Below are positions 104 through 11,172 of a stretch of DNA of 12,141 bases, in pieces. Below the pieces are notes generated by a model. That model saw nothing but the letters and a program-made list of their open reading frames with translations. It ran no database searches and was not told the DNA's origin. This stretch comes from Persephonella sp. (GTDB taxonomy: Bacteria > Aquificota > Aquificia > Aquificales > Hydrogenothermaceae). Both the position numbers and the translations under genes were made by a program. Position 1 is the stretch's first letter, and the number at the start of each line of letters is the position of its first letter. The DNA lies in contig JALTAS010000115.1 of the NCBI GenBank assembly GCA_027058925.1, positions 1 to 12,141 on the forward strand, read 5' to 3'.

Positions 104-1051
104 TTGTGGATTTTAGGAGAGCATGATGAACCGGTTAGAAAAACAAGAACCTCAATACTTGAGCTTGTTGGAAACACACCTCTGTTAAAACTGGAAAAAT
201 CTCTTCCTGAAGATCTGAAAGATAAACCTGTTGAGATATATGCAAAGCTTGAAGGTTATAATCCGGGGGGTTCTGTAAAAGACAGACCTGCAACAAGGAT
301 GATACTTGAGGCTATTCAATCAGGGAAGCTGACAAAAGACAAAATAATACTTGATGCAACATCCGGAAACACAGGTATAGCTCTTGCTATGGTTGGTACA
401 GCCTTAGGATACAGGGTTGAGCTTGCTATGCCGTCAAATGTTAGTGAGGAAAGGAAAAGGATTATTCAGGCATACGGTGCAAAAATACATTACACTGATC
501 CTCTTCAAAGTACAGATGGGGCTATCCTTTTTGTGAGAGATCTTATTGAGAAATATCCTGAAAAATACTGCTATATTGATCAGTATAACAATGATGCTAA
601 CTGGAGATCTCACTTTTACTCAACAGCTGTTGAAATATGGGAGCAGACACACCACAGAATAACCCATTTTATAGCTGGTATAGGAACCGGTGGAACAATA
701 ATGGGAACTGGAAGAAGGCTGAAAATATTCAATCCTGACATACAGATAATAGGTGTCCAGCCTGATAGCCCGTTTCACGGTATTGAGGGTCTTAAATATA
801 TAGAAACATCAATAAAACCTGGAATTTTTGATGAGAACAGGCTTGACAGAACTATGTTTATAGGGACTGATATAGCATATCAGAGAGCAAGGGAGCTTGC
901 CAGAAAAGAGGGTGTTTTTGTTGGACAGTCTTCCGGTGCTGCTTTTGAGGCTGCTATACAGATAGCAAGGGAGATAAAAGAAGGCGTTGTTGTTTTTGTC
1001 TGTCCTGACGGGGGAGAAAAATACCTTACTACCGCTCTGTGGGAGTTTTAA
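104..1051 (+). CDS. cysM: Cysteine synthase, O-acetylserine sulfhydrylase type (CysM-like)
   Basis: This is a PLP enzyme that makes L-cysteine from O-acetylserine (or an activated serine) and sulfide in the cytoplasm. The 315 residues fit the family length of about 300-320. The PLP lysine is K59 in NPGGSVKDR. TSGNTG (86-91) is the substrate loop. GTGGT (194-198) cradles the cofactor phosphate. SSGAA (276-280) and PDGGEKYLTT (301-310) close the site. NPGGSVKDRPA and the EIWEQT...ITHFIAGIGTGGT block look more like CysM than CysK. The family also contains cystathionine beta-synthases and CysO-dependent enzymes, so the sulfur donor is not certain. There is no C-terminal CBS pair. The start is TTG, giving an N-terminus (MWILGEHDEPVRK) about 15 residues ahead of the usual first helix. 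It stands alone on the plus strand, and its TAA overlaps the stop of the opposing gpgS. Confidence 0.88.
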   Translation: MWILGEHDEPVRKTRTSILELVGNTPLLKLEKSLPEDLKDKPVEIYAKLEGYNPGGSVKDRPATRMILEAIQSGKLTKDKIILDATSGNTGIALAMVGTALGYRVELAMPSNVSEERKRIIQAYGAKIHYTDPLQSTDGAILFVRDLIEKYPEKYCYIDQYNNDANWRSHFYSTAVEIWEQTHHRITHFIAGIGTGGTIMGTGRRLKIFNPDIQIIGVQPDSPFHGIEGLKYIETSIKPGIFDENRLDRTMFIGTDIAYQRARELARKEGVFVGQSSGAAFEAAIQIAREIKEGVVVFVCPDGGEKYLTTALWEF

Positions 1052-2262
1052 AAATCTTCATTATCTGTTCTTACAGCCTGTATCAGTTTTTCTGAAATGT
1101 CAGGAAGAGCAGCCCTTACTCTAACCCATGCGGACATTAGAGGAACACCTATGGGATCCTTTCTGAAATCCTCTTCTGCGATCTTTAATGCCTGAACAAA
1201 AGCCTCTATAGCTTCTATCTCACTGTGTCTGTCGTACTCAAGACCGTTTATGAGGGATAGTGCATTGTATTTTTCTATAGCGTATCTGGCTTCCTGCAGG
1301 TAGGTTGTTATCAGTGTTCTGAAAAAGCCGTTTGAAAAAACAAACCCGTCGTGTGCTAGAACCCTGAAAAGTGTTTTCGCTATATCTGAAGCCATCTTAA
1401 CGAGACCTTCAGAAGGTGTTCCTTTTTTCAGCTTCTGGTGTTTGTGCTCATAGGTTTCCATTACCTCAACCTGACAAACCCTGTTAAAAGATGTGTTGTT
1501 GTAAACCTCGCTCAGCATTGAAACTTCAAGTCCCCAAGTGGGGGATATTCTTATTCCTCTTGCTAAACTTCTTATAAATGAAAACTCTCCGGAAAGGGCG
1601 TATCTAAAGCTGTCAAGGTAGACCAAGAACTGTTTGTAGCCTAATATTTTCATTAAAGCTCTTATCAGTGGAGTGTAGAACAGTCTTGTGACTCTTCCGT
1701 ACAGTTTATTTGTTACCCTTGCGTAATAACCTTTAGCAAACTCAAAATCAAGAGCCGGTGAAACAACTGGATAAAAAAGCCTTGCAGGAAGTTCTCTTGA
1801 GTAGTTAACGATATCACAATCATGAAGGGCAATCGCATAAGCTTTTACATCTGACAGAATGTAGCCTAATGACATCCATACAGACCTTCCTTTTCCGGGA
1901 ATATCCACATTAAAACCTGCTTCTCTGAGCAAGTTATACAGCTTCTGCATTTTGGGACCATCATGCCATATAACATCAACCTGTGTAGGTATATCTGACA
2001 TTATTCTTTTTACTTTTCTGAACTCTTCCTCTGAAGCCCTGTCTAAAGAAAGGACTATTTTGTAAAGGTATCTTATTTTTTTAAGTTCCTCTACGATCTT
2101 AGGCATAGCAGGACCTTCAAACTCAGAGTATAGGGATGGAAGCAGGAGAACCATATTTCTTCTCTGTGCAAAAAGCTCAAGCTCATACTCAAGCTCTTCA
2201 AGTGATCTGCTTCCAAGTTTCTGCAAAGTTGTTATAACTCCATTTTGAAAAAAATCAGCCAT
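1048..2262 (-). CDS. gpgS: Glucosyl-3-phosphoglycerate synthase (GpgS, GT81 family)
   Basis: It transfers glucose from an NDP-glucose donor to D-3-phosphoglycerate, giving glucosyl-3-phosphoglycerate, the first step of two-step glucosylglycerate synthesis. The 404-residue protein has the MADFFQNG start that I associate with archaeal and bacterial GpgS. It then has a GT-A core: LLLPSLYSEFEG (39-50), the glycine/lysine loop PGKGRSVWMSL (122-132), a DxD-type metal site in HDCD (D148, D150), the acceptor region SGEF (224-227), GLEVSML (244-250) and a late EHKH (272-275). The DxD and GKG motifs match roles known from mycobacterial GpgS. An AGGAGG ribosome site overlaps the stop codon of ggs, 9 bases upstream, which suggests translational coupling. 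It is the last gene of the minus-strand run. Mannosyl-3-phosphoglycerate synthase (GT55) is less likely because its layout differs. Confidence 0.85.
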   Translation of the reverse strand: MADFFQNGVITTLQKLGSRSLEELEYELELFAQRRNMVLLLPSLYSEFEGPAMPKIVEELKKIRYLYKIVLSLDRASEEEFRKVKRIMSDIPTQVDVIWHDGPKMQKLYNLLREAGFNVDIPGKGRSVWMSLGYILSDVKAYAIALHDCDIVNYSRELPARLFYPVVSPALDFEFAKGYYARVTNKLYGRVTRLFYTPLIRALMKILGYKQFLVYLDSFRYALSGEFSFIRSLARGIRISPTWGLEVSMLSEVYNNTSFNRVCQVEVMETYEHKHQKLKKGTPSEGLVKMASDIAKTLFRVLAHDGFVFSNGFFRTLITTYLQEARYAIEKYNALSLINGLEYDRHSEIEAIEAFVQALKIAEEDFRKDPIGVPLMSAWVRVRAALPDISEKLIQAVRTDNEDF

Positions 2263-2267
2263 CTGAC

Positions 2268-2273
2268 CCTCCT
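2268..2273 (-). promoter_or_regulatory. consensus ribosome binding site of gpgS, overlapping the ggs stop
   Basis: AGGAGG on the minus strand lies 5 bases before the gpgS ATG. The ggs stop codon TAG (2274-2272) shares its first bases. A ribosome ending ggs would terminate on the gpgS initiation site. Confidence 0.75.
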
Positions 2274-3522
2274 AATCCCACAGTTTTATAAGGTAGTCCT
2301 TCATGTCTTCAAATATTTCTGCCTGTTTGCTGTAGTACTCTTCTGCTTCTTCATCTGTTTTGTCTTTAAGTTCATTAACAAGAGAAGCAACCCTTCCATT
2401 GTACAGAGGTATCATTGTATCAAGAACTTTGAATTTTTGTCTTGGTGTTGTATGGAAGTAATCTGCATATCTGTAAACAATTCTGACCCAAGTTTCTATA
2501 GGCATTATAAAGTTTTCAGGTTTTTCCTCCATAAAGAGTTTTTCAATTATTTTGAAATCCTCAGGTTCCAAAATTGATCTCCATACACCACCGAAGTTGT
2601 TGTAACCTAATTTAAAGTATTCAATAAGGCTTTGCTGATCTATTTCAAAAGGTTCAGGTTCCATGCCGACAAAATCACCAATAACAGGAACATCTTTTGA
2701 TCCTTTAACCTTTTTCCAGAAGTAGTCGTAACTTTCCATGAGCCTGAATATTGTTCCAACAACCTCCCTGTACATATGGGAAAGATCTTTACCTGGATCC
2801 TTTTCCTGATGTATCTTAGCCCCTAATCTTGCCTGACATACTTTATACCCATCAACAATCGCGGTTGTTGTCATCCATATATCTATCCCAAATTTTGCAA
2901 CATCTGTCTCCCAAACATCTTTGTCAAGGTAATCTTTTATAAGTTTTCTTGACATTCCAAAATCTCCACCAATAGGCTGTCTTATTCTGTAGCCGTATAA
3001 TGCTCTGGTAAGGTTGTAGGCTATTGTGTTTGTTATCGTCCCATCAAATTTATATCTTTTGTAATATGGGCATACATAGTCGTAACCTTCGTATATCGGT
3101 TCTATTATGTTTTTAACCCATTCTGGTGTTATGGATTTCAGATCAGAATCAAATGTTGCAACAGCTTCTGCTCTCAAAAATTCCGCAGCTTCAAAAACAG
3201 CCCTTAATGCGGATCCCTTTCCTGGAACACCTCTGTAAATTGTAACTATTTTTTCTATGTTGTACTTTGAGATATCTATCTCTCGTGCTACCTCTCTTGT
3301 GTCATCTGTTGATCCTCCATCAGATATAAAAATCAAACATTTTTTGTCATTAAAATACTTGTCAAGCCCTTTTGCCACCTGTTCAACAACATGTGATATA
3401 GTAAACTGGCTGTAGTAAGATGGTATCCCAACAACGATATCAGCATATCCTAAACGTTCTATTTTTTTTCTGGCATCATCCCTCAGAGCTGTTGAAAATC
3501 TTGCCCTTGGCAGTACTAACAT
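2272..3522 (-). CDS. ggs: Glucosylglycerate synthase (Ggs), single-step, GT78-like
   Basis: It is predicted to condense NDP-glucose with unphosphorylated D-glycerate to give glucosylglycerate directly. From the ATG chosen here it is 416 residues. The GT-A core shows DIVVGIPSYYSQ (28-39), ISDGGSTDDT (66-75), GKGSAL (101-106), the DxD site FDSDL (D125, D127), RQPIGGDFGMSRK (181-193), KFGIDIWMTT (210-219) and the histidine block AKIHQEKDPGKDLS (235-248). From memory, the order GKG-DxD-QPxGG-GID-H follows Rhodothermus marinus mannosylglycerate synthase (GT78), the single-step enzyme, and not GpgS. A single-step GG synthase has been described from Persephonella marina. A TTG at 3534 would add four residues, but the ATG at 3522 has TTGGAGG five bases before it. 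It starts one base after the kinase stop. Donor sugar cannot be read from sequence, so a mannosyl enzyme remains possible. Confidence 0.78.
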   Translation of the reverse strand: MLVLPRARFSTALRDDARKKIERLGYADIVVGIPSYYSQFTISHVVEQVAKGLDKYFNDKKCLIFISDGGSTDDTREVAREIDISKYNIEKIVTIYRGVPGKGSALRAVFEAAEFLRAEAVATFDSDLKSITPEWVKNIIEPIYEGYDYVCPYYKRYKFDGTITNTIAYNLTRALYGYRIRQPIGGDFGMSRKLIKDYLDKDVWETDVAKFGIDIWMTTTAIVDGYKVCQARLGAKIHQEKDPGKDLSHMYREVVGTIFRLMESYDYFWKKVKGSKDVPVIGDFVGMEPEPFEIDQQSLIEYFKLGYNNFGGVWRSILEPEDFKIIEKLFMEEKPENFIMPIETWVRIVYRYADYFHTTPRQKFKVLDTMIPLYNGRVASLVNELKDKTDEEAEEYYSKQAEIFEDMKDYLIKLWD

Positions 3523-3523
3523 A

Positions 3524-4819
3524 TCATCCTCCAACCAATATTATTGTTATGTCCATAACATTTGTCCCTGTATAGCCTGTTTTTATGTTGTCTTCGATTT
3601 TTGTAAAAAAGCTGTTTGAATCGTTGTTTTCAAGATATTTGTATGGATCGAGACCTAATTTTTTTACTTTCTTGTAAGAAGAGCTGTCAACTACAGCCCC
3701 TGCATCTTCAGAGTTCCCATCTATGCCGTCGGTTCCTCCTGATAAAAAAACGATATTTTTTGTGTCTTTTATCTCTATAAGGGCAGAAAGGCACAGTTCC
3801 TGATTTCTCCCTCCCTTTCCATTCCCTTTTACCGTTACCGTAGTTTCTCCTCCAAAAAGAAGGCATACAGGAGGTTTAAAGGGATTAGAACTTTTTTTAA
3901 TCTCTTTACCTATTGAAACTATTGCCTTTGCAACCTCTTTTGCTTCTCCTTTTAGCTGTGATGTCATTATGTATGTTTTCATAAATTTTTCTGCTTTCTG
4001 TTTTATTTTTTTCAGAGCGTCTATATTACTTCCTATTATGTAATGTTTTATATTTGGATTTTCTTTTTTTGGGGTTTCCTTTATCTCACCTTTTATTCCT
4101 TTTTTAATCACTTTTTTAACATTATCTGGAAGGTCGTCAAATATGTTGTGTTTTTTCAGGATGTTGTAGGCATCTTCGTATGTTGATTGATCGTAATATA
4201 AAGGGGCAGAGCCAATTGTAAAAAGATCATCCCCTATAACATCAGATATAACCAGTACTATTCCTTTTGCTTTTGTGGAATGTCCTAATCGTCCTCCTTT
4301 TATCAGGGATAGATGTTTCCTCACAATGTTTATCTCTTCAATGGGAACAGAATGTTTCAAAAGAATCTGTGTTGTTTTTTGAAGATCCTGAAGGGTTACA
4401 GGAGGAACAGGTTTTTCTATTAAGGCTGAACTTCCCCCTGATAGAAGGAATATAAAAAAGTCATTTTCTTTTAGTGATGAGATCTTTTTTAGTAGAGTTT
4501 CCCCTGCTATAAGGCTTTTTTCATCTGGTACAGGATGGCTTCCTTCAATAACTTTTATTTTTTTCAGTTTTTGTGTGTAGTTACATACAACAGTCCCATC
4601 TATGATGTAGTCTAACAACATTTTTTCTATGGCCTTTGCCATCTCAACAGATGCTTTTCCGCTTCCGAATATATATACTCCATTTTTAATGGAATATTTA
4701 TCTCCTTCTATCTGTATAGAGCTGTTTTCCAAACAGATCTTTTCAGGAATTAGATTTTCAGGTTTTACAGACTCTATTCCATAAAGGAATAGATCAATGC
4801 CTGTTTTTTTCAAATTCAT
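3524..4819 (-). CDS. Glycerate 2-kinase (class II, GK/MOFRL family)
   Basis: It phosphorylates D-glycerate with ATP, in this family usually to 2-phosphoglycerate. The protein is full length (431 residues from the ATG). Family motifs in order are GSGKAS (52-57, with K55), SHPVPD (94-99), LLSGGSSAL (125-133), NIVRKHLSLIKGGRL (164-178), LVISDVIGD (189-197), the MOFRL block FGGETTVTVKGNGKGGRNQEL (322-342, described by its key GGET and GGRNQE), SGGTDGIDG (360-368) and the final GYTGTN (415-420). The usual SGPTxPD segment reads SAPLYYD (204-210), a departure. It overlaps the end of gpgP by 26 bases. Next to ggs and gpgS it likely balances glycerate (Ggs substrate) against phosphoglycerates (GpgS substrate), or salvages glycerate. 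That role is inferred. The gene looks richer in A+T than the glycosyltransferase genes. Confidence 0.85.
   Translation of the reverse strand: MNLKKTGIDLFLYGIESVKPENLIPEKICLENSSIQIEGDKYSIKNGVYIFGSGKASVEMAKAIEKMLLDYIIDGTVVCNYTQKLKKIKVIEGSHPVPDEKSLIAGETLLKKISSLKENDFFIFLLSGGSSALIEKPVPPVTLQDLQKTTQILLKHSVPIEEINIVRKHLSLIKGGRLGHSTKAKGIVLVISDVIGDDLFTIGSAPLYYDQSTYEDAYNILKKHNIFDDLPDNVKKVIKKGIKGEIKETPKKENPNIKHYIIGSNIDALKKIKQKAEKFMKTYIMTSQLKGEAKEVAKAIVSIGKEIKKSSNPFKPPVCLLFGGETTVTVKGNGKGGRNQELCLSALIEIKDTKNIVFLSGGTDGIDGNSEDAGAVVDSSSYKKVKKLGLDPYKYLENNDSNSFFTKIEDNIKTGYTGTNVMDITIILVGG
3528..3532 (-). promoter_or_regulatory. ribosome binding site that fixes the ggs start
   Basis: GGAGG lies inside the last codons of the glycerate kinase gene (GTT GGA GGA TGA), five bases before the ATG at 3522. 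For the alternative TTG at 3534 this site would fall inside the gene and could not act. It supports the shorter 416-residue product. Confidence 0.7.
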
Positions 4820-5603
4820 CAATTAATCTCCAAACAACCTCGTTCCAGCCTTTACTTCCTGGATAAGAAGCCCTGATAATGCCCTGGATATTGATACTCT
4901 CATACTCCATATTAATTTTGGGTATTAGAACAGGAATGTCAACGACTTGAAGCATTGGAAGATCATTTTTACTGTCTCCTATGCCGACTGTTGTTATCCG
5001 GCCTATATTTTTTCTGAAAATATCTGCTGTTAGTTTTACAGCTTTTCCTTTATCCTGATTTTTTCCTATAAGATGGTAAAACCTTCCTCCTCTGGTAATC
5101 TTAAGTCCGTATTCTTCTGCTTTTTTTTCAAGCAAGGGAAGTTTTGATCTGTCTTCTAATATGAAAGGTTCTGTAAACTCCCTCATCTTTGAGTATCTTG
5201 CTTTTTCAACAGGAAGATCTGTTAACTTTGCTATCTCTTCAACACTCATATCCCCAAATCCTTTAATGGGAATTTCTCCTCTGATTTTATTGATAAATTG
5301 TCTTATATGGTTGTAATCTTTACCTAAAATAAGTGTTCTGTATCCGTTGTATTCAGGCAGATCAAGCTTAAAGCCTCTGTAGTTTTCAGGAAAGAAAACA
5401 GCTGCTCCATTTTCTACTATAAATGGTTCTTTTATGCCTATCTCTTTCTGGAGCAGTTCAATCTCAATTCTTGTTTTGCTTGATGTGAATATGAGGGGGA
5501 TTTTTAACTTTTTTATTCTGTTCAGTGATGGAAGGGCATCTTTGTAAGAGTAATCATCATGATTTAGAAGAGATCCATCAAGATCTGTAAAAATTACAAG
5601 CAT
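4794..5603 (-). CDS. gpgP: Glucosyl-3-phosphoglycerate phosphatase (GpgP; HAD, MPGP type)
   Basis: It removes phosphate from glucosyl-3-phosphoglycerate to give glucosylglycerate, the second step after GpgS. The 269 residues match HAD phosphatases of the mannosyl-3-phosphoglycerate phosphatase family. Visible motifs are the nucleophile motif FTDLDGSLL (D7, D9), motif II TSSKTR (40-45), VENGAA (63-68), the family segment REFTEPF (141-147), KGKAVK (185-190) and the metal motif GIGDSKNDLPML (207-218). The family also acts on mannosyl-3-phosphoglycerate, and the glucosyl assignment comes from the neighbouring gpgS and ggs. It starts two bases after the phoR stop, with only a weak ribosome site (GGTTGAG), so it may depend on ribosomes finishing phoR. 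Its product releases phosphate inside a phosphate-transport gene cluster. Confidence 0.84.
   Translation of the reverse strand: MLVIFTDLDGSLLNHDDYSYKDALPSLNRIKKLKIPLIFTSSKTRIEIELLQKEIGIKEPFIVENGAAVFFPENYRGFKLDLPEYNGYRTLILGKDYNHIRQFINKIRGEIPIKGFGDMSVEEIAKLTDLPVEKARYSKMREFTEPFILEDRSKLPLLEKKAEEYGLKITRGGRFYHLIGKNQDKGKAVKLTADIFRKNIGRITTVGIGDSKNDLPMLQVVDIPVLIPKINMEYESINIQGIIRASYPGSKGWNEVVWRLIDEFEKNRH
4828..4831 (-). promoter_or_regulatory. ribosome binding site that fixes the glycerate kinase start
   Basis: GGAG sits eight bases before the ATG at 4819, inside the 3' end of gpgP. The immediately preceding in-frame TTG (4822) would be only five bases away and is the weaker codon, so ATG is preferred. 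The choice changes one residue. Confidence 0.55.
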
Positions 5604-5605
5604 AG

Positions 5606-6598
5606 TTACTCAACCGGTAGTTTTACTATAAACTTTGAACCTTTTCCGATTTGACTTTCTACTTCAACTTTTCCGTTGTGAGCCTCGGCTATGTGCTTTA
5701 CTATAGAGAGTCCAAGCCCTGTTCCTCCAACATTTCTGCTTCTTGATTTGTCCACCCTGTAGAATCTCTCAAAGATAAGTGGAAGGCTTTCCTTGGGAAT
5801 TCCTATACCTGTATCTGAAACTGCTATAAGGACATATCTGTCCTTTTGCTCAGCTGTTACAGAAACCAATCCTCCCTGTTTGTTGTATTTTATCGCATTT
5901 TCAATAAGGTTTTTCAGTAAGATGCTGAATTTTTTCTCATCAACAAAAACTGTGAAATCAGAATAAACAGAGTTTTTGACTTTAACGCTTTTTTCGGAAG
6001 CTATATGCTGAAGATCATCAATTATCTGATTTACAACTCCTCTAAGTTTAACCTTTTTCTTTTGTATTTTTTCCTCTTTTGATTCTAACTTTGCAAGTAT
6101 GAGAAGGTCGTTAATCAGGCTATCCATCTGATGAATTCTTTTTTTTGCTTTTTTTAAAAAGCCCTTTATCACTTCCATCTTATCTTCATTCTCTAATGTT
6201 TCAATAACACCTTTCAGAACTGTGATTGGTGTTTTAAGTTCGTGGGATACATTTGAAACAAAATCTTTTTTTGCCTGTTTGTAAATCTCAAAAGGTGTTA
6301 TGTCCTGAAAGTGGATAACCTTTTTTCCATTTATGTTTAAAACTTTGGCCAGGAATATATCGTCGTCTATAATGATCTCTTCTTTCAGCTCATTTTTTAT
6401 ATCTGCACTTATCAGTGAGTAAAGATAGTTGTTTTTAACAACCTGTGAAAACCTTTTTCCTTCGGGATTTTTCACATTCAGTAGATCTTTCGCATATCTG
6501 TTCATGTACTGTATGTTTTTGTTCTGATCAATAACGATAAGCCCTTCTTTAAGGAAATCAAGAAAACCAATAAGAGTGTCTTTAAGGCTTTCTTCCAT
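5606..6598 (-). CDS. phoR: PhoR-type sensor histidine kinase, soluble (PAS-HisKA-HATPase)
   Basis: It probably autophosphorylates and passes phosphate to a PhoB-like regulator when phosphate is scarce. The order is a PAS-like domain (about 8-105), a dimerisation helix with H119 in VSNVSHELKTP, then an ATPase domain with the N box KNLIENAIKYN (229-239), G1 SDTGIGIP (261-268), the F box FERFYRVDKSRS (276-287) and G2 GGTGLGLSI (291-299). Its 330 residues contain no hydrophobic run long enough to cross the membrane, whereas E. coli PhoR is membrane-anchored through its N-terminus. Input from Pst/PhoU is therefore likely to be cytoplasmic. No response regulator gene is in this window. Its ATG shares a base with the phoU stop (TAATG), and an AGGTGAG ribosome site lies inside phoU. 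The PhoR identity rests on the pst-phoU neighbourhood and the PAS-HisKA layout. Confidence 0.82.
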   Translation of the reverse strand: MEESLKDTLIGFLDFLKEGLIVIDQNKNIQYMNRYAKDLLNVKNPEGKRFSQVVKNNYLYSLISADIKNELKEEIIIDDDIFLAKVLNINGKKVIHFQDITPFEIYKQAKKDFVSNVSHELKTPITVLKGVIETLENEDKMEVIKGFLKKAKKRIHQMDSLINDLLILAKLESKEEKIQKKKVKLRGVVNQIIDDLQHIASEKSVKVKNSVYSDFTVFVDEKKFSILLKNLIENAIKYNKQGGLVSVTAEQKDRYVLIAVSDTGIGIPKESLPLIFERFYRVDKSRSRNVGGTGLGLSIVKHIAEAHNGKVEVESQIGKGSKFIVKLPVE

Positions 6599-7254
6599 TA
6601 CTCACCTAAGTTCTGGTGTCTGAGCATCTTTCCTTCTTTCATATAAATAACTTCTTCTGCAAGGTTTGTTGCTATATCTGCAACCCTTTCAAGGTTTGAT
6701 GATACAGTTATCAGTCTTATTCCAACTTTTATATTTTTGGGATCCTCAACCATATATGTGTATATCTCTCTTATTATCTGTTCGTGAAGAGCATCAACCT
6801 TATCGTCTCTTGATATAACCTCTCTTGCAAGTTCTGTATCTAAAGTCTCAAGTGATTTCACCGCGTCCCTGACCATACCTATAACTATATCCGTCATAAC
6901 AGGGAGATCAACATACTCTTTAAGTTTAGGTTTTGTTAAAATCCTTTCTGCCTGCTCTTTTATATTTTCTGCATGATCTCCTATACGCTCAAGATCCCTG
7001 TTGACAAATAGATCCATAACAAGCATTCTCAGATATTTTGCTTCAGGCTGAAATCTTGCTATTGTTGTTATTATCAGAGTCTCATTTTCTACCTCCATCT
7101 GATCAACCTGAGGCTCAAGTTCATCAACAACTTTGAGGTACTCAGGGTTATGCTCAATTATAGCTTTGACAGCATTTTCAATCATAAGATCTGCAAGCTC
7201 AGCCATCTTTATAAGGCTGTCTCTAATTTTTTCAAGTCTTGGTTTTAAAAGCAT
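6598..7254 (-). CDS. phoU: Phosphate signalling protein PhoU
   Basis: PhoU is a cytoplasmic, peripherally membrane-bound helical protein. It links Pst transporter state to the PhoR kinase and represses the Pho response when phosphate is plentiful. The 218 residues give two three-helix repeats. Each carries the acidic metal-binding signature: E89 and D93 in LERIGDHAEN, and E189 and D193 in LERVADIATN. Length and motif spacing are normal. The ATG is preceded by AAAGGGGGA, and the gene begins 11 bases after pstB. Its stop overlaps the start of the kinase gene by one base. The order pstB-phoU-phoR fits a Pst-PhoU-PhoR signalling complex. Confidence 0.94.
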   Translation of the reverse strand: MLLKPRLEKIRDSLIKMAELADLMIENAVKAIIEHNPEYLKVVDELEPQVDQMEVENETLIITTIARFQPEAKYLRMLVMDLFVNRDLERIGDHAENIKEQAERILTKPKLKEYVDLPVMTDIVIGMVRDAVKSLETLDTELAREVISRDDKVDALHEQIIREIYTYMVEDPKNIKVGIRLITVSSNLERVADIATNLAEEVIYMKEGKMLRHQNLGE

Positions 7255-7265
7255 AATTTCCCCCT

Positions 7266-8033
7266 TTATCCAAATCTTCCACTGACGTAATCCTCTGTCA
7301 GTTTTTCTTTAGGTGCTGTAAATATGATATCAGTTTTATCAAACTCAATAAGTTCTCCAAGATACATAAATGCTGTGTAATCAGAAACTCTTGCAGCCTG
7401 CTGCATGTTGTGTGTAACGATTATTATCGTTACGGTCTCTTTTAATGATACAACAAGTTCCTCTATCTTACTTGTTGATATTGGGTCAAGGGCTGATGTA
7501 GGTTCGTCAAAAAGAAGAACTTCTGGCTCAACAGCAAGAGCCCTTGCTATAACAAGCCTCTGTTGCTGACCGCCAGACAGACCAGATGCAGAATCTTTTA
7601 ACCTATCTTTTACTTCATCCCACAAAGCAGCTTGCTTTAATGCTTTCTCAACCTTTTCTTCCAGTATCCTTTTGTCTTTTATTCCTCTCAGCTTAAGTCC
7701 ATATGCAACATTGTCAAATATGCTCATTGGAAATGGTGTTGGTTTTTGAAAAACCATACCTACTTTTGATCTCAGTTTTATAAGATCATAATCATCTTTC
7801 AGTATATTTTCCCCATCCAACAGTATTTCTCCTTTATATCTGTTTCCAGGATAGAGATCATGCATTCTGTTGAATGATCTAAGAAGAGTAGTCTTACCGC
7901 ATCCTGATGGGCCTATAAGTGCTGTTACCTTTTTTTCATAAACAGGAATATTTATCTTTTTCAGTGCTGGATCTTTTGAACCAGCATACCAGAAATAAAA
8001 ATCTTTAACCTTTATTTTTTCCCTATCAGCCAT
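7266..8033 (-). CDS. pstB: Phosphate ABC transporter ATP-binding protein PstB
   Basis: PstB is the ATPase of the high-affinity phosphate importer, acting as a dimer on the cytoplasmic face of PstCA. At 255 residues it is the usual length. Its motifs are intact: Walker [10 protein letters not shown] (41-49), the Q-loop glutamine Q96 in [12 protein letters not shown] (94-105, a PstB hallmark), the signature LSGGQQQR (152-159), Walker [13 protein letters not shown] (173-184) with E177, and the switch histidine H208 in [13 protein letters not shown]. An AGGTGG ribosome site precedes the ATG. The gene begins 8 bases after pstA and ends 11 before phoU. The protein looks fully active. Confidence 0.96.
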
Positions 8034-8041
8034 TTATCCAC

Positions 8042-9124
8042 CTACCCTCTGTATTTCAGATGTAATATATATCTTGCAATAACGGTAACAAACAGTATAA
8101 AGAAAGTGATAACGAAAGAAGCTGCCCATGCTTTTGTATGCCAGTCTTCGTAAGGACCTGTAGCATAAACAAATATTGTTACTGTAAGTGAAGATATAGG
8201 CTCATTCATGTTCGTTGTGAAGTAAGAGTTATTAAAAGATGTAAAAAGTAAAGGAGCTGTTTCTCCTGCAACTCTTGATATTGATAGTATAATTCCTGTT
8301 AGAATTCCTGTCATTGCTGCCCTGATCACAACATCTTTTATAACATTGTAATAAGATGCCCCAAGTGCAAATGCTGCCTCTCTCAAAGACCAGGGAACAA
8401 GAGAGAGCATATTCTCGGTTGTTCTTAGAACAACAGGTATCATAATAAATGCAAGGGCTGCAGCACCTGCCCAACCGTTGAATCCCTGAATTTTGTCCAC
8501 CAATTTTGGAAGGAGAAAGACAAACAAAAAAACACCAAAAAGAACTGTTATAAGCGTAGTTGTAAGATTTAGCAGTTTAACTGCCCTTTCTGAAGATATC
8601 CTTACTATTTTGAGCAGTATGTTTGTTGTGAACAGGTTTAGAATTGAGCCAAATAGGAAGGACAGTATAGCAGAAAGAAATGCCACAGCCAGAATACCAC
8701 CTAAATTGATATGACCTATGGGTTTAACGAGTATAGCATAGATAAAAGTTCCAACAACTATAGATGGGACGCTAACCATTATGTCTGATAGTATAGATAC
8801 AGTTTTTGAAAATTTTGTTCCTCTCGCATACTCTGCAATAAAAATTCCTGCAAGCATTCCTACAGGAACACCTATAATCACAGCAAAAAACACTATCTCA
8901 AGCTGGCCGACAAAAGCGTTTCTCAGTCCTCCACCGGGTATTCCGGGGGGAGCAGGATCTTCTGTGAAAAGCTCAAGGTTAAGACCTGATATACCGTGTC
9001 TCAAAACATCAAACAGTATAAAACCGAGCCAGAACAATCCAAAAAAAGCAGCAGCTGTTGATAAAGAAAGAGCAATCCAGCTTATTATCTTCCTTCTTCT
9101 TACGTATCTTTCTTCATATCTCAT
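8042..9124 (-). CDS. pstA: Phosphate ABC transporter permease PstA, with an internal insertion
   Basis: PstA is an inner-membrane permease that pairs with PstC. The core is typical: an N-terminal helix (about 15-40), the periplasmic segment EDPAPPGIPGGGLRNA (55-70), VGVPVGM-type helices (74-98), SDIMVSVPSIVVG (113-125), the cytoplasmic coupling loop REAAFALGASYYNVIKDV (249-265) and GETAPLLFT (288-296). At 360 residues it is longer than E. coli PstA (about 296). The excess lies between GTFIYAILVKPIGH (125-138) and FNGWAGAAALAFIMIP (215-230), where ordinary PstA runs straight on. The insert of about 76 residues holds two hydrophobic stretches (about 141-170 and 187-207), joined by a basic loop KIVRISSERAVK. 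Its ATG overlaps the pstC stop as ATGA. The frame is unbroken. Confidence 0.92.
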   Translation of the reverse strand: MRYEERYVRRRKIISWIALSLSTAAAFFGLFWLGFILFDVLRHGISGLNLELFTEDPAPPGIPGGGLRNAFVGQLEIVFFAVIIGVPVGMLAGIFIAEYARGTKFSKTVSILSDIMVSVPSIVVGTFIYAILVKPIGHINLGGILAVAFLSAILSFLFGSILNLFTTNILLKIVRISSERAVKLLNLTTTLITVLFGVFLFVFLLPKLVDKIQGFNGWAGAAALAFIMIPVVLRTTENMLSLVPWSLREAAFALGASYYNVIKDVVIRAAMTGILTGIILSISRVAGETAPLLFTSFNNSYFTTNMNEPISSLTVTIFVYATGPYEDWHTKAWAASFVITFFILFVTVIARYILHLKYRG

Positions 9125-10062
9125 CTTGAGTATCCCCTTTCAGCTTTAAGGAGAAAGAATTTTGCCAGAGCAAGTATCACAAAGCTGAGAACAAACAGTA
9201 TAAGGGCAAGATAAAAAAGAGATGATAAGTATATATCTGAATCAGCCTCTGTGAACTCATTTGCAAGGGTAACTGTTATTGTTGCAGCAGCATCAAACAG
9301 AGATGTTGTAATCTCGTGTCTGTTTCCTAAGACAAAAGCAACAGCCATTGTTTCTCCTAAAGCCCTCCCAAGGGCTAAAACAATTCCCCCATAAATTCCC
9401 AGTTTTGCATAAGGTATCATAACATCCTTCACAACATCCCATTTTGTTGCACCAAGTGCATAAGCAGACTCTTTCATAAGGTCAGGAGTAAGATTAAGTG
9501 AGTCTCTTGCCACACTTGCTATAAAAGGAATGATCATAATGCTTAAAACTACACTTGCTGTAAAAAGATCAATTCCCTGAGGTGTCCCTTCAAATATCTT
9601 TCCTATTAAAGGGATCTGTCCCAATGTTTTCTGAATGGCAGGTTCTATGTATTCTGACATTATTGGTGCCAGTGTAAAAAGCCCCCACATTCCGTATATG
9701 ATACTCGGGATAGCTGCGAGCATCTCTATAGCAATTCCTACAGGTGTTTTTAAAAAATGGGGGGAAACCTCAGCCAAAAAGATAGCTATTCCCAGAGCCA
9801 TAGGGATTGCCAGAGTTAGAGATAAAATTGTTATAACAACAGTTCCAAAAAGTGGAGCTGCTGCGCCGAATATCTGTTTAACAGGATCCCAGTTCTGGGT
9901 TATTATAAAGTTGATTATTCCAAACCTATGAATCGCCAGAGATGATTCTTTGTAGAGGACTAAAATTATCAGAAGGATCAGTGTTAATACAAGAAAAGAA
10001 GCAGAAAAGGAAATTATCCCGAAAAATATATCTTTCAAGGGTGGTTTTCCTATTTTTTTCAT
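9121..10062 (-). CDS. pstC: Phosphate ABC transporter permease PstC
   Basis: PstC is the second inner-membrane permease of the phosphate importer. From the ATG chosen here it has 313 residues, close to E. coli PstC. It has an N-terminal helix (about 12-37), the periplasmic NWDPVKQIFGAAAPLFGT (57-74), the helices IPMALGIAIFLAEVSP (86-101) and MLAAIPSIIYGMWGLF (114-129), the coupling loop KESAYALGATKWDVVKDV (197-214) and LGRALGETMAVAFVLGN (231-247). An in-frame ATG at 10110 would add 16 residues (MPIFVIMNTDINQVGV), but it lies inside a terminator hairpin and has no ribosome site. The ATG at 10092 also has none. The ATG at 10062 follows CAGGTAGGAGTA and yields MKKIGKPPLKD, a normal PstC start. 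Separated from pstS by about 105 bases. Confidence 0.94.
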   Translation of the reverse strand: MKKIGKPPLKDIFFGIISFSASFLVLTLILLIILVLYKESSLAIHRFGIINFIITQNWDPVKQIFGAAAPLFGTVVITILSLTLAIPMALGIAIFLAEVSPHFLKTPVGIAIEMLAAIPSIIYGMWGLFTLAPIMSEYIEPAIQKTLGQIPLIGKIFEGTPQGIDLFTASVVLSIMIIPFIASVARDSLNLTPDLMKESAYALGATKWDVVKDVMIPYAKLGIYGGIVLALGRALGETMAVAFVLGNRHEITTSLFDAAATITVTLANEFTEADSDIYLSSLFYLALILFVLSFVILALAKFFLLKAERGYSR

Positions 10063-10090: not shown

Positions 10091-10096
10091 ATTATA
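10091..10096 (-). promoter_or_regulatory. possible internal -10 element before pstC
   Basis: On the minus strand TTGTTATAATG contains an exact TATAAT just past the second terminator hairpin. A start about 7 bases on would give a short leader to the pstC ATG at 10062. The hexamer 17 bases upstream (TGGGCT) matches TTGACA weakly and lies in the hairpin. It would supply the downstream genes independently of pstS, but could be chance. Confidence 0.28.
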
Positions 10097-10097
10097 A

Positions 10098-10120
10098 CAA
10101 AAATGGGCATAAAAGCCCAT
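10098..10120 (-). terminator. intrinsic terminator between pstS and pstC (proximal to pstC)
   Basis: Read on the minus strand: stem ATGGGC (10120-10115), loop TTTTAT, stem GCCCAT (10108-10103), then T residues to 10099. That is a six-base-pair stem with four G:C pairs and a five-T run counting the last stem base. It lies about 50 bases past the pstS stop, inside an otherwise uninterrupted operon, so it probably terminates partially and lowers expression of the distal genes relative to pstS. Confidence 0.68.
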
Positions 10121-10167: not shown

Positions 10168-11172
10168 TTATGGATGAATTCCTTTTTCTTTCCAGTAATT
10201 AAATATTTTCTGTTTCAACTTTTCTGGAAGAGGAACATAATCAAGTCTTTCTGCGATTTTGTCCCCTTTTTCAAAAGCCCACTTGAAAAATCTGTTTACC
10301 TTTTTGTTTGTTTCTGTTTTTTCTCTCGCCTCAAGAATAAATGAAGCTCCTGCTATAGGCCATGCTTTCTTTCCTGGTGCATTTACCATCCAGAGATAAA
10401 AATCTTTTTTAGGATCAAAGTTTGCTGTGGCTCCCGCTGCTTTAAATGTTTCTATGCTTGGTGCAACAAAATTTCCTGCAGGGTTTTTCAGGAGAGTGTA
10501 TGCAAGCTTATTTTGCTTTGCGTAGGCAAACTCAACATATCCTATTGAGTATTTCAATCTTTTAACATAGTTTGCAACACCTTCATTTCCTTTCCCACCT
10601 ATTCCAACAGGCCATTTGACAGCTTTTCCTGATCCTACCTTTTCCTTCCATTCTGGACATGCACCTGAAAGGTATGTTGTAAATATCGCTGTTGTTCCTG
10701 AGCCGTCAGCCCTGTGAACTACCTGTATCTCTTTATGGGGAAGGTTCAGTTCTGGGTTTATTTTTTTTAGATGTTTGTTATCCCAGTATTTGATTTTACC
10801 AAGGTATATGTTGCATATAGCTTTTGAATCAAGTTTAAGCTGGCCGGATTTTACACCTGGAATGTTAACGACAGGAACAACCCCGCCTATTATTGCAGGA
10901 AACTGATAAAGTTTGTATTTATCAAGCTTTTCTGGTGGAAGAGGAGCATCAGATGCTCCAAAATCAACCGTTCTGTTTTTTATCTGTCTAACTCCACCAC
11001 CTGATCCGATAGACTGGTAATTCAGCTTTATACCTGTTTCTTTATAATACATGTAAGCCCAGGCCGCATATACAGGATAAGGGAATGTTGCACCTGCTCC
11101 ATTTATTGTTTCTCCGGCGATCGCTACATTTAACAATCCTGCTACAACAACACCTGCCGTAAATTTTTTCAT
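10168..11172 (-). CDS. pstS: Periplasmic phosphate-binding protein PstS
   Basis: PstS captures phosphate in the periplasm and delivers it to PstCA. The 334 residues begin with a signal peptide (MKK, hydrophobic core 7-18, probable cut near AIA at 17-19) and have no lipobox cysteine, so it is soluble as in Gram-negative bacteria. Phosphate-binding segments are visible: GAGATFPYP (25-33), SIGSGGGVRQI (55-65), VDFGASDAP (69-77) and RADGSGTTAIF (154-164). Two cysteines (C120, C172) could form a disulfide. Length is usual. AAGGAGG lies eight bases before the ATG, among the strongest ribosome sites here. It starts 13 bases after the barrel-protein gene and is followed by tandem terminators, an arrangement expected to keep PstS more abundant than the permease. 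Confidence 0.95.
   Translation of the reverse strand: MKKFTAGVVVAGLLNVAIAGETINGAGATFPYPVYAAWAYMYYKETGIKLNYQSIGSGGGVRQIKNRTVDFGASDAPLPPEKLDKYKLYQFPAIIGGVVPVVNIPGVKSGQLKLDSKAICNIYLGKIKYWDNKHLKKINPELNLPHKEIQVVHRADGSGTTAIFTTYLSGACPEWKEKVGSGKAVKWPVGIGGKGNEGVANYVKRLKYSIGYVEFAYAKQNKLAYTLLKNPAGNFVAPSIETFKAAGATANFDPKKDFYLWMVNAPGKKAWPIAGASFILEAREKTETNKKVNRFFKWAFEKGDKIAERLDYVPLPEKLKQKIFNYWKEKGIHP

Follow-up and report, generated by a model that had tools for sequence, protein, structure and literature searches.

The 12,141-nucleotide (nt) stretch analyzed here, hereafter the window, is the whole of contig C115 (JALTAS010000115.1) of the Persephonella sp. genome G000, a draft of 1.40 Mb in 262 contigs that is 78% complete. 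It carries an 11-gene minus-strand run that starts with a porin-like gene and pstS, continues with pstC, pstA, pstB, phoU and phoR, and closes with four genes of glucosylglycerate (GG) synthesis, namely gpgP, a glycerate kinase gene, ggs and gpgS (Table 1). PstS, PstC, PstA, PstB, PhoU and a PhoR-type kinase thus follow one another in the order of a pst-phoU-phoR operon. Both routes to GG are represented, the two-step route by homologues of GpgS and GpgP, and the one-step route by a homologue of Ggs.

Among the 11 genes, the sole intergenic gap longer than 13 nt is that of 105 nt between pstS and pstC. The original prediction described the nine genes from pstC to gpgS as abutting, and recomputing the gaps confirmed each joint (negative values are overlaps): -4 nt at pstC/pstA (ATGA), 8 nt at pstA/pstB, 11 nt at pstB/phoU, -1 nt at phoU/phoR (TAATG), 2 nt at phoR/gpgP and 9 nt at ggs/gpgS. 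The gpgP/kinase joint measures -26 nt from an ATG start and -29 nt from a TTG start, and the kinase/ggs joint 1 nt from an ATG start and -11 nt from a TTG start. At the far end, gpgS overlaps the convergent cysM by 4 nt. Promoter and terminator scans also bore out the earlier remark that neither signal is evident at the phoR/gpgP boundary. Outside the scope of that prediction lie pstS and the cut porin-like gene upstream, as well as the pstS/pstC gap with its hairpin, T-run and extended -10 box.

Table 1. Genes and putative regulatory features of the window, in the direction of the run.
Feature	Position	Strand	Basis
Porin-like gene, first of the upstream unit, 5' end past the contig end	11187..12141	-	Open frame to the contig end
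pstS, phosphate-binding protein	10168..11172	-	PF12849 PBP_like_2, E 3.9e-33; 13 nt past the porin-like gene
Terminator-like hairpin (stem-loop 10120-10103) and T-run	10098..10120	-	About -9.4 kcal/mol
Extended -10 element TGTTATAAT, proposed promoter of the nine-gene unit	10091..10099	-	Match to TGnTATAAT
pstC, phosphate permease	9121..10062	-	TIGR02138, 297 bits (cut-off 196)
pstA, phosphate permease, long 360-residue form	8042..9124	-	TIGR00974, 263 bits (cut-off 193)
pstB, ATPase	7266..8033	-	TIGR00972, 394 bits (cut-off 343)
phoU	6598..7254	-	TIGR02135, 177.7 bits (cut-off 130)
phoR-type histidine kinase	5606..6598	-	HisKA and HATPase_c domains
gpgP, glucosyl-3-phosphoglycerate phosphatase (MPGP family)	4794..5603	-	TIGR01486, 241.8 bits (cut-off 164.75)
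Glycerate 2-kinase, MOFRL type	3524..4819	-	PF13660 and PF05161
ggs, glucosylglycerate synthase	2272..3522	-	GT2 and MGS_GT domains
gpgS, glucosyl-3-phosphoglycerate synthase, last gene	1048..2262	-	NF040724, 345.6 bits, E 3.3e-103

The porin-like identity comes from relatives: the piece in the window has no Pfam match, the copy of genome G028 at the same position matches Porin_O_P (E 3.8e-9), and no Pfam model matched the copy of G026. PhoR scores under the cut-offs of PnpS NF046044 (311 of 400 bits) and TIGR02966 (291 of 334 bits), and has no strongly hydrophobic 19-residue stretch, with a maximum 19-residue hydropathy of 1.18 compared to 2.93 for PstC; judged by hydropathy, it looks cytoplasmic. 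For the glycerate kinase, the best model is NF041176 with 308.7 bits, well under the cut-off of 550, and the GpgS score is likewise well under the NF040724 cut-off of 700. Comparison with the best 120 of 7999 scored Ggs homologues showed that, among the matches listed, the window protein is 77% identical to one named by NCBI 'glucosylglycerate synthase Ggs [Persephonella]' (P0018). A search of solved structures gave weak matches only, to a mycobacterial-type GpgS and to mannosylglycerate synthase. Scans for tRNA genes and for Rfam families at gathering thresholds returned 0 matches within the window.

Like pstSCAB-phoU-phoR operons with a Pho box, the run holds these genes in this order, is preceded in relatives by Pho-box-like repeats and has a hairpin past pstS. 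It differs in the -10 box behind the hairpin, the four GG genes appended after phoR, the PhoR without an evident membrane segment and a phoB that lies outside the run. The GG biosynthesis genes of Persephonella marina, for GpgS, GpgP and Ggs, are known as an "operon-like" cluster and were reportedly described by Costa and by Fernandes, both in 2007. The enzymes found here are the same, and genome G016, probably that of P. marina, has the same gene order. That order is public with the P. marina genome, so that only its interpretation is new; on the regulatory side, new here are the Pho-box-like motif before porin-pstS in relatives, and the hairpin and -10 box in the pstS/pstC gap.

The pstS/pstC gap and the Pho-box-like motif

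Gene order was compared across 41 genomes of the family, which were searched with Ggs and PhoR and whose loci were fetched and annotated. We denote the genus of the window as g1 (14 genomes), a second genus that includes G016 as g7, and the other GG-bearing genera as g2-g5. Of 30 pieces, three lacked one of the two genes and were dropped, leaving pstS/pstC gaps from 27 genomes. TATAAT occurs in 25 of the 27 gaps, compared to 2.7 expected from 1000 dinucleotide shuffles per gap, the extended form TGnTATAAT in 19, and 24 gaps contain a hairpin with a T-run. For g1 and g7 alone, the respective counts are 14, 13 and 11 of 14 gaps. Where hairpin and box occur together (22 gaps), the -10 box starts 5-17 nt past the recorded stem in 19. 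Moreover, from the start of the locus through gpgS, the sole exact TGnTATAAT on the operon strand lies 36-49 nt before pstC in 11 of 11 operons scanned, G027, G021 and G022 having been left out of the 14 g1/g7 loci. Since the same anatomy is found in genera without GG genes at this place, the GG genes would have joined an existing unit.

Alignment of the region upstream of the porin-like gene from nine g1/g7 genomes revealed one conserved block. Allowing at most 3 mismatches, the corresponding pattern TTAANNAATNTTAACANAAATTTAATA has 57 matches in 35 of the 41 genomes, compared to 17 for the reversed pattern, and thus recurs before phosphate genes above chance, not all 57 matches having been inspected. 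Among 19 distinct sites, 14 lie 32-69 nt before a porin-like gene, pstS or a phoB operon (several of the porin labels were given by eye), three lie at contig ends (L048, L058 and L062), and two are not beside phosphate genes (that of G040 and the second of G016). The motif thus lies upstream of the porin-like gene or pstS in several genera, and it precedes the phoB operon in G035 and G037, where a small gene comes first and then phoB; in these two g9 genomes (L050 and L049, respectively), the small gene encodes a conserved 141-residue protein without assigned function.

In g1, ten of the 14 genomes have exactly one match each at this tolerance, all at 0 or 1 mismatch. Nine of the ten precede the porin-like gene, and the tenth (G025) sits at a contig end with a divergent neighbor like that of G028. 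The four genomes without a match are G000 and G029, whose contigs end in the porin-like gene, G020, in which the front of the run is absent, and G021, which has an 11+11 spacing variant. A matrix scan of the window found no match on either strand within 3 bits of the threshold of 26.1, the best score on the operon strand being 3.3, and no Pho-box-like site was found at the pstS/pstC promoter, before gpgP or elsewhere in the nine-gene part. Similarly, none of the 11 GG-bearing loci outside g1 and g7 has the motif at 3 or fewer mismatches or in the matrix scan. With the looser pattern TTAACA-N5-TTAAYA and one mismatch, the genome of the window has 35 matches and the control 18, a result set aside as uninformative. 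On comparative evidence, we predict that the motif, which resembles Bacillus PhoP boxes, is a Pho box. A PhoB-like regulator scoring 221-255 bits is encoded in 33 of the 41 genomes, in all cases under the cut-off of 296 bits.

Conservation and history of the run

Ten of the 14 g1 genomes, and the g7 genome G016, carry the Pst/Pho-GG order on one contig. Besides the window, the g1 genomes that share it are G026, G023, G018, G024, G017, G025, G028, G029 and G019, several GG frames being broken in G029. In 11 of 12 genomes, phoR and gpgP are separated by -4 to +3 nt. In the remaining one, G019, the computed gap is 311 nt as phoR is split into frames of 227 and 103 residues, the second of which ends 3 nt before gpgP. 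With the genes abutting in ten further genomes, and in G019 behind a split phoR, the arrangement is not due to chance. The split itself (L026:6707-7698), in a two-contig genome whose GG genes are open, may be a sequencing error or a real break.

As for the remaining g1 genomes, G027 has the Pho and GG parts on two contigs, one of which ends within gpgP, and G020 offers only a 4-kb piece bearing the GG end. In G021, which is 74% complete, the contig breaks off in phoR, and the genome yielded neither ggs nor gpgS; overall, ggs is present in 12 of the 14 genomes. In G022, phoR is followed by about 700 nt of other sequence and then cysM, with no GG genes and no convincing remnant of them in between (best tblastn E 0.14). 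This interval (L029:9223-9921) contains two small frames, the first of which is perhaps HEPN-like by eye, without a Pfam match. In a midpoint-rooted FastTree phylogeny of PhoU and PhoR, g1 and g7 share a clade (0.999), G021 and G022 falling within g1, and the GG module of G022 was therefore most likely lost. In the tree of the GG proteins, g7 groups with g3 (0.971), beside g1.

In g2-g5, each of the eight draft genomes in which both ggs and phoR were found (G001, G004, G005, G008, G010, G011, G012 and G013) has them on different contigs, and no pst or pho gene was seen on the fetched GG pieces of these genera. The GG locus of G004 equals that of G012 in gene lengths, identities and zero branch length; as G004 has 7% contamination, it is perhaps not independent. 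Close relatives with the two blocks far apart, which the original prediction named as evidence against itself, are hence found at the level of the family and not within the genus. Across the phylum, a GpgS match was obtained for 24 of 136 genomes, a single one of which (G123) lies outside the family. At the GG locus of G012 and the matching one of G004 (L030:8472-9500; L032:10249-11277), gpgP shares 4 nt with a gene for a D-2-hydroxyacid dehydrogenase, an enzyme that might supply Ggs with D-glycerate.

The front of the run appears to have a different history from its back. The window PstC is 94-95% identical to those of G023 and G026, 88% to that of G005 from g2, 83-84% to those of G025, G028, G027 and G019, and 71-77% to those of G018, G024, G017, G029, G021, G022 and G016. 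Likewise, the window PstA is the 360-residue form of g2, compared to a form of about 280 residues in six g1 genomes with a PstC of 71-77% identity, giving a mosaic (window 8042-10062; L015, L016 and L042). A tree of PstC and PstA agrees with these identities on 11 sequences only, the genomes with short PstA having been dropped, and the PstB tree gives the same grouping at 0.956 with weak support inside. It seems from these comparisons that the front of the run was exchanged with g2-like versions and the back retained: pstC, pstA and perhaps pstB look exchanged in two sublineages, and the GG block stayed behind phoU-phoR. Besides its own genes, G023 has a second, g2-like phoU-phoR-SDR block (L047), a possible donor for such an exchange.

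Two proposed transcription units and their alternatives

From the gene order, joints, hairpin, -10 box and motif positions, all of which are seen in the sequence, we infer transcript boundaries, PhoB binding and read-through as follows. On balance, we favor two head-to-tail units, porin-pstS and the nine genes behind it, the latter read from an internal promoter that lacks a Pho box. The first unit would start at the Pho-box promoter past the contig, as seen in relatives, and be switched on by phosphorylated PhoB when phosphate is scarce, its transcripts ending mostly at the hairpin behind pstS. The second would start at the extended -10 promoter behind the hairpin and yield one basal-level message for the Pst permease and ATPase, PhoU, PhoR and both GG routes, in which GpgS and GpgP proceed from 3-phosphoglycerate and Ggs from glycerate. 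Phosphate starvation would raise this second message only as far as the polymerase reads through the hairpin. Given such a two-promoter anatomy of the pst genes in the family, one would expect pstS to be induced strongly and the GG genes weakly or by read-through.

Transcription of the GG genes together with the Pst/PhoU/PhoR core is probable and well supported by the tight phoR/gpgP joints, the absence of an exact TGnTATAAT past pstC in the operons scanned and the order kept in two genera. The original prediction had GG synthesis co-expressed with phosphate-starvation genes. Its first half stands as co-transcription with pstCAB-phoU-phoR, but Pho-regulated GG synthesis is unsupported, because the only Pho-box-like site of the run precedes porin-pstS, and a hairpin and a separate -10 box lie before pstC. 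Promoter anatomy thus makes Pho induction of GG synthesis less likely than had been proposed, although Pho control could still reach the GG genes by read-through, or if the nine genes are not a separate unit.

Several observations weigh against the two-unit arrangement or thin its evidence. The genome tallies include close relatives and are not independent. The promoter region of the window's own porin-like gene lies past the contig end, the best PhoB match of G000 is weak (168 bits), and the motif matrix was trained on sites that it later recovered. In g1, the reversed pattern has 5 matches compared to 10 for the motif, so that the case for the motif there comes from where it lies and how few mismatches it has, not from how often it occurs. 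By the criteria used, the hairpin is absent from three of the 27 gaps (G026, G021 and G022) and TATAAT from two (G014 and G015), and in G025, G035 and G037 the recorded stem and the -10 box are 81-363 nt apart. The box also has no clear -35 partner, and the general scan of the window found no excess over shuffles for either promoters (34 compared to 35.5) or terminators (11 compared to 8.1). Finally, the stems that were folded, nine in number, gave about -7 to -14 kcal/mol, that of G018 being at -8.8 kcal/mol, so that read-through might be extensive and control by Pho strong.

The physiology would allow some benefit from the arrangement. GG is an anionic, phosphorus-free solute, and its synthesis by GpgS and GpgP would free phosphate from sugar and glycerate phosphates, so that a moderate link with phosphate sensing could be of advantage; selection for such a link is conjecture. 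Doubtful, in our estimate, is a stronger version in which GG synthesis in Persephonella-type vent bacteria is, through its place behind phoR, a hard-wired arm of the phosphate response, GG rising as phosphate falls, balancing potassium as a phosphorus-free anion and releasing phosphate from 3-phosphoglycerate and glucose phosphate. The literature searched, represented in part by excerpts, holds no tie of GG synthesis to Pho control or to pst-phoU-phoR, the broader queries being weak tests. Other aspects of P. marina do appear there: PMC10077225 cites Lamosa 2013 for a GG derivative, and PMC2674218 cites the P. marina GpgS. In chemostats of marine Synechococcus, according to PMC11020310, GpgS clusters with nitrogen-stress and not with phosphorus-stress proteins. 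This favors a nutrient-related role of GG, though not one tied to phosphate: the use of GG would be nutrient-linked rather than purely osmotic in both cases, whereas the link proposed here is to phosphate and comes from gene order alone. The arrangement would represent a compatible-solute pathway of a thermophile tied by gene order to a phosphate sensor, with the caution that regulation is not to be read from abutting genes alone.

The alternatives overlap in the probabilities we give them, as the first concerns function and the others concern transcription. The strongest, to which we give somewhat less than an even chance, takes the GG module as a passenger: a chance event in the common ancestor of g1 and g7 would have placed it behind phoR, where it borrows a promoter with no physiological tie to phosphate. 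The gene behind phoR indeed differs by genus, which suggests that GG may be such a passenger. In all six g2 genomes, and also in the second phoU-phoR copy of G023, the end of phoR shares 4 nt with a gene judged SDR-like by eye. In G013 (g5), a PhoB-type regulator gene lies behind phoR with the same overlap. On the fetched pieces of g3, g4, g6, g8, g9 and g10, the next same-strand frame after phoR is at least 33 nt off or absent, or a convergent gene follows; phoR is not beside pst on the fetched g3, g4, g5 and g8 pieces. Flanks without a phosphate link are also common to g1 and g7, namely cysM and a RuvA-like gene downstream and a RibB-like gene upstream (the last two by eye), and conserved adjacency is therefore not special. 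The absence of the module between phoR and cysM in G022 points the same way. Against a mere passenger speaks that the GG block stayed in place behind phoU-phoR while the genes in front look exchanged.

Rather unlikely, but still to be reckoned with, is a single Pho-induced operon in which PhoB, acting at the promoter of the porin-like gene, switches on all 11 genes, the hairpin only tunes the excess of pstS, and GG synthesis is a starvation response. It would agree with the Pho-box-like motif before the first gene in relatives, with the lack of a second long gap in the window and with G026, which has no clear terminator. It fits poorly with the TATAAT of the pstS/pstC gaps, which includes genera without GG genes there, and with the lack of a Pho-box-like site in the nine-gene unit.

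An own promoter of the GG genes inside phoR or gpgP, answering to salt or heat independently of the phosphate genes, has a small chance in our view. PMC2874817 lists GpgS and GpgP of P. marina among osmoregulation genes, consensus scans miss unusual promoters, and the general scan recorded three 9-of-12 promoter-like matches inside phoR on the operon strand (first hexamers at 6449, 6204 and 5956). These matches are at chance level, there is no room between the genes, and neither phoR nor gpgP has an exact TGnTATAAT in the 11 operons scanned.

Least probable by far is a solute swap, in which phosphorus-free GG replaces the phosphodiester di-myo-inositol phosphate at low phosphate: an inositol-phosphate synthase gene lies beside a nucleotidyltransferase gene in G000 and G016, but these are the only two of 13 GG-bearing g1/g7 genomes with a synthase match, and the swap was rejected as a general cause given the lack of a match in the other 11, some of which are incomplete. 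It is conceivable only where the synthase is present. The two loci (L068:3462-5263 in G000 and L069:3777-6196 in G016) encode a myo-inositol-1-phosphate synthase and a nucleotidyltransferase, genes of a di-myo-inositol-phosphate-type solute. The nucleotidyltransferase is cut by the contig end in G000 and fused to a CDP-alcohol transferase in G016.

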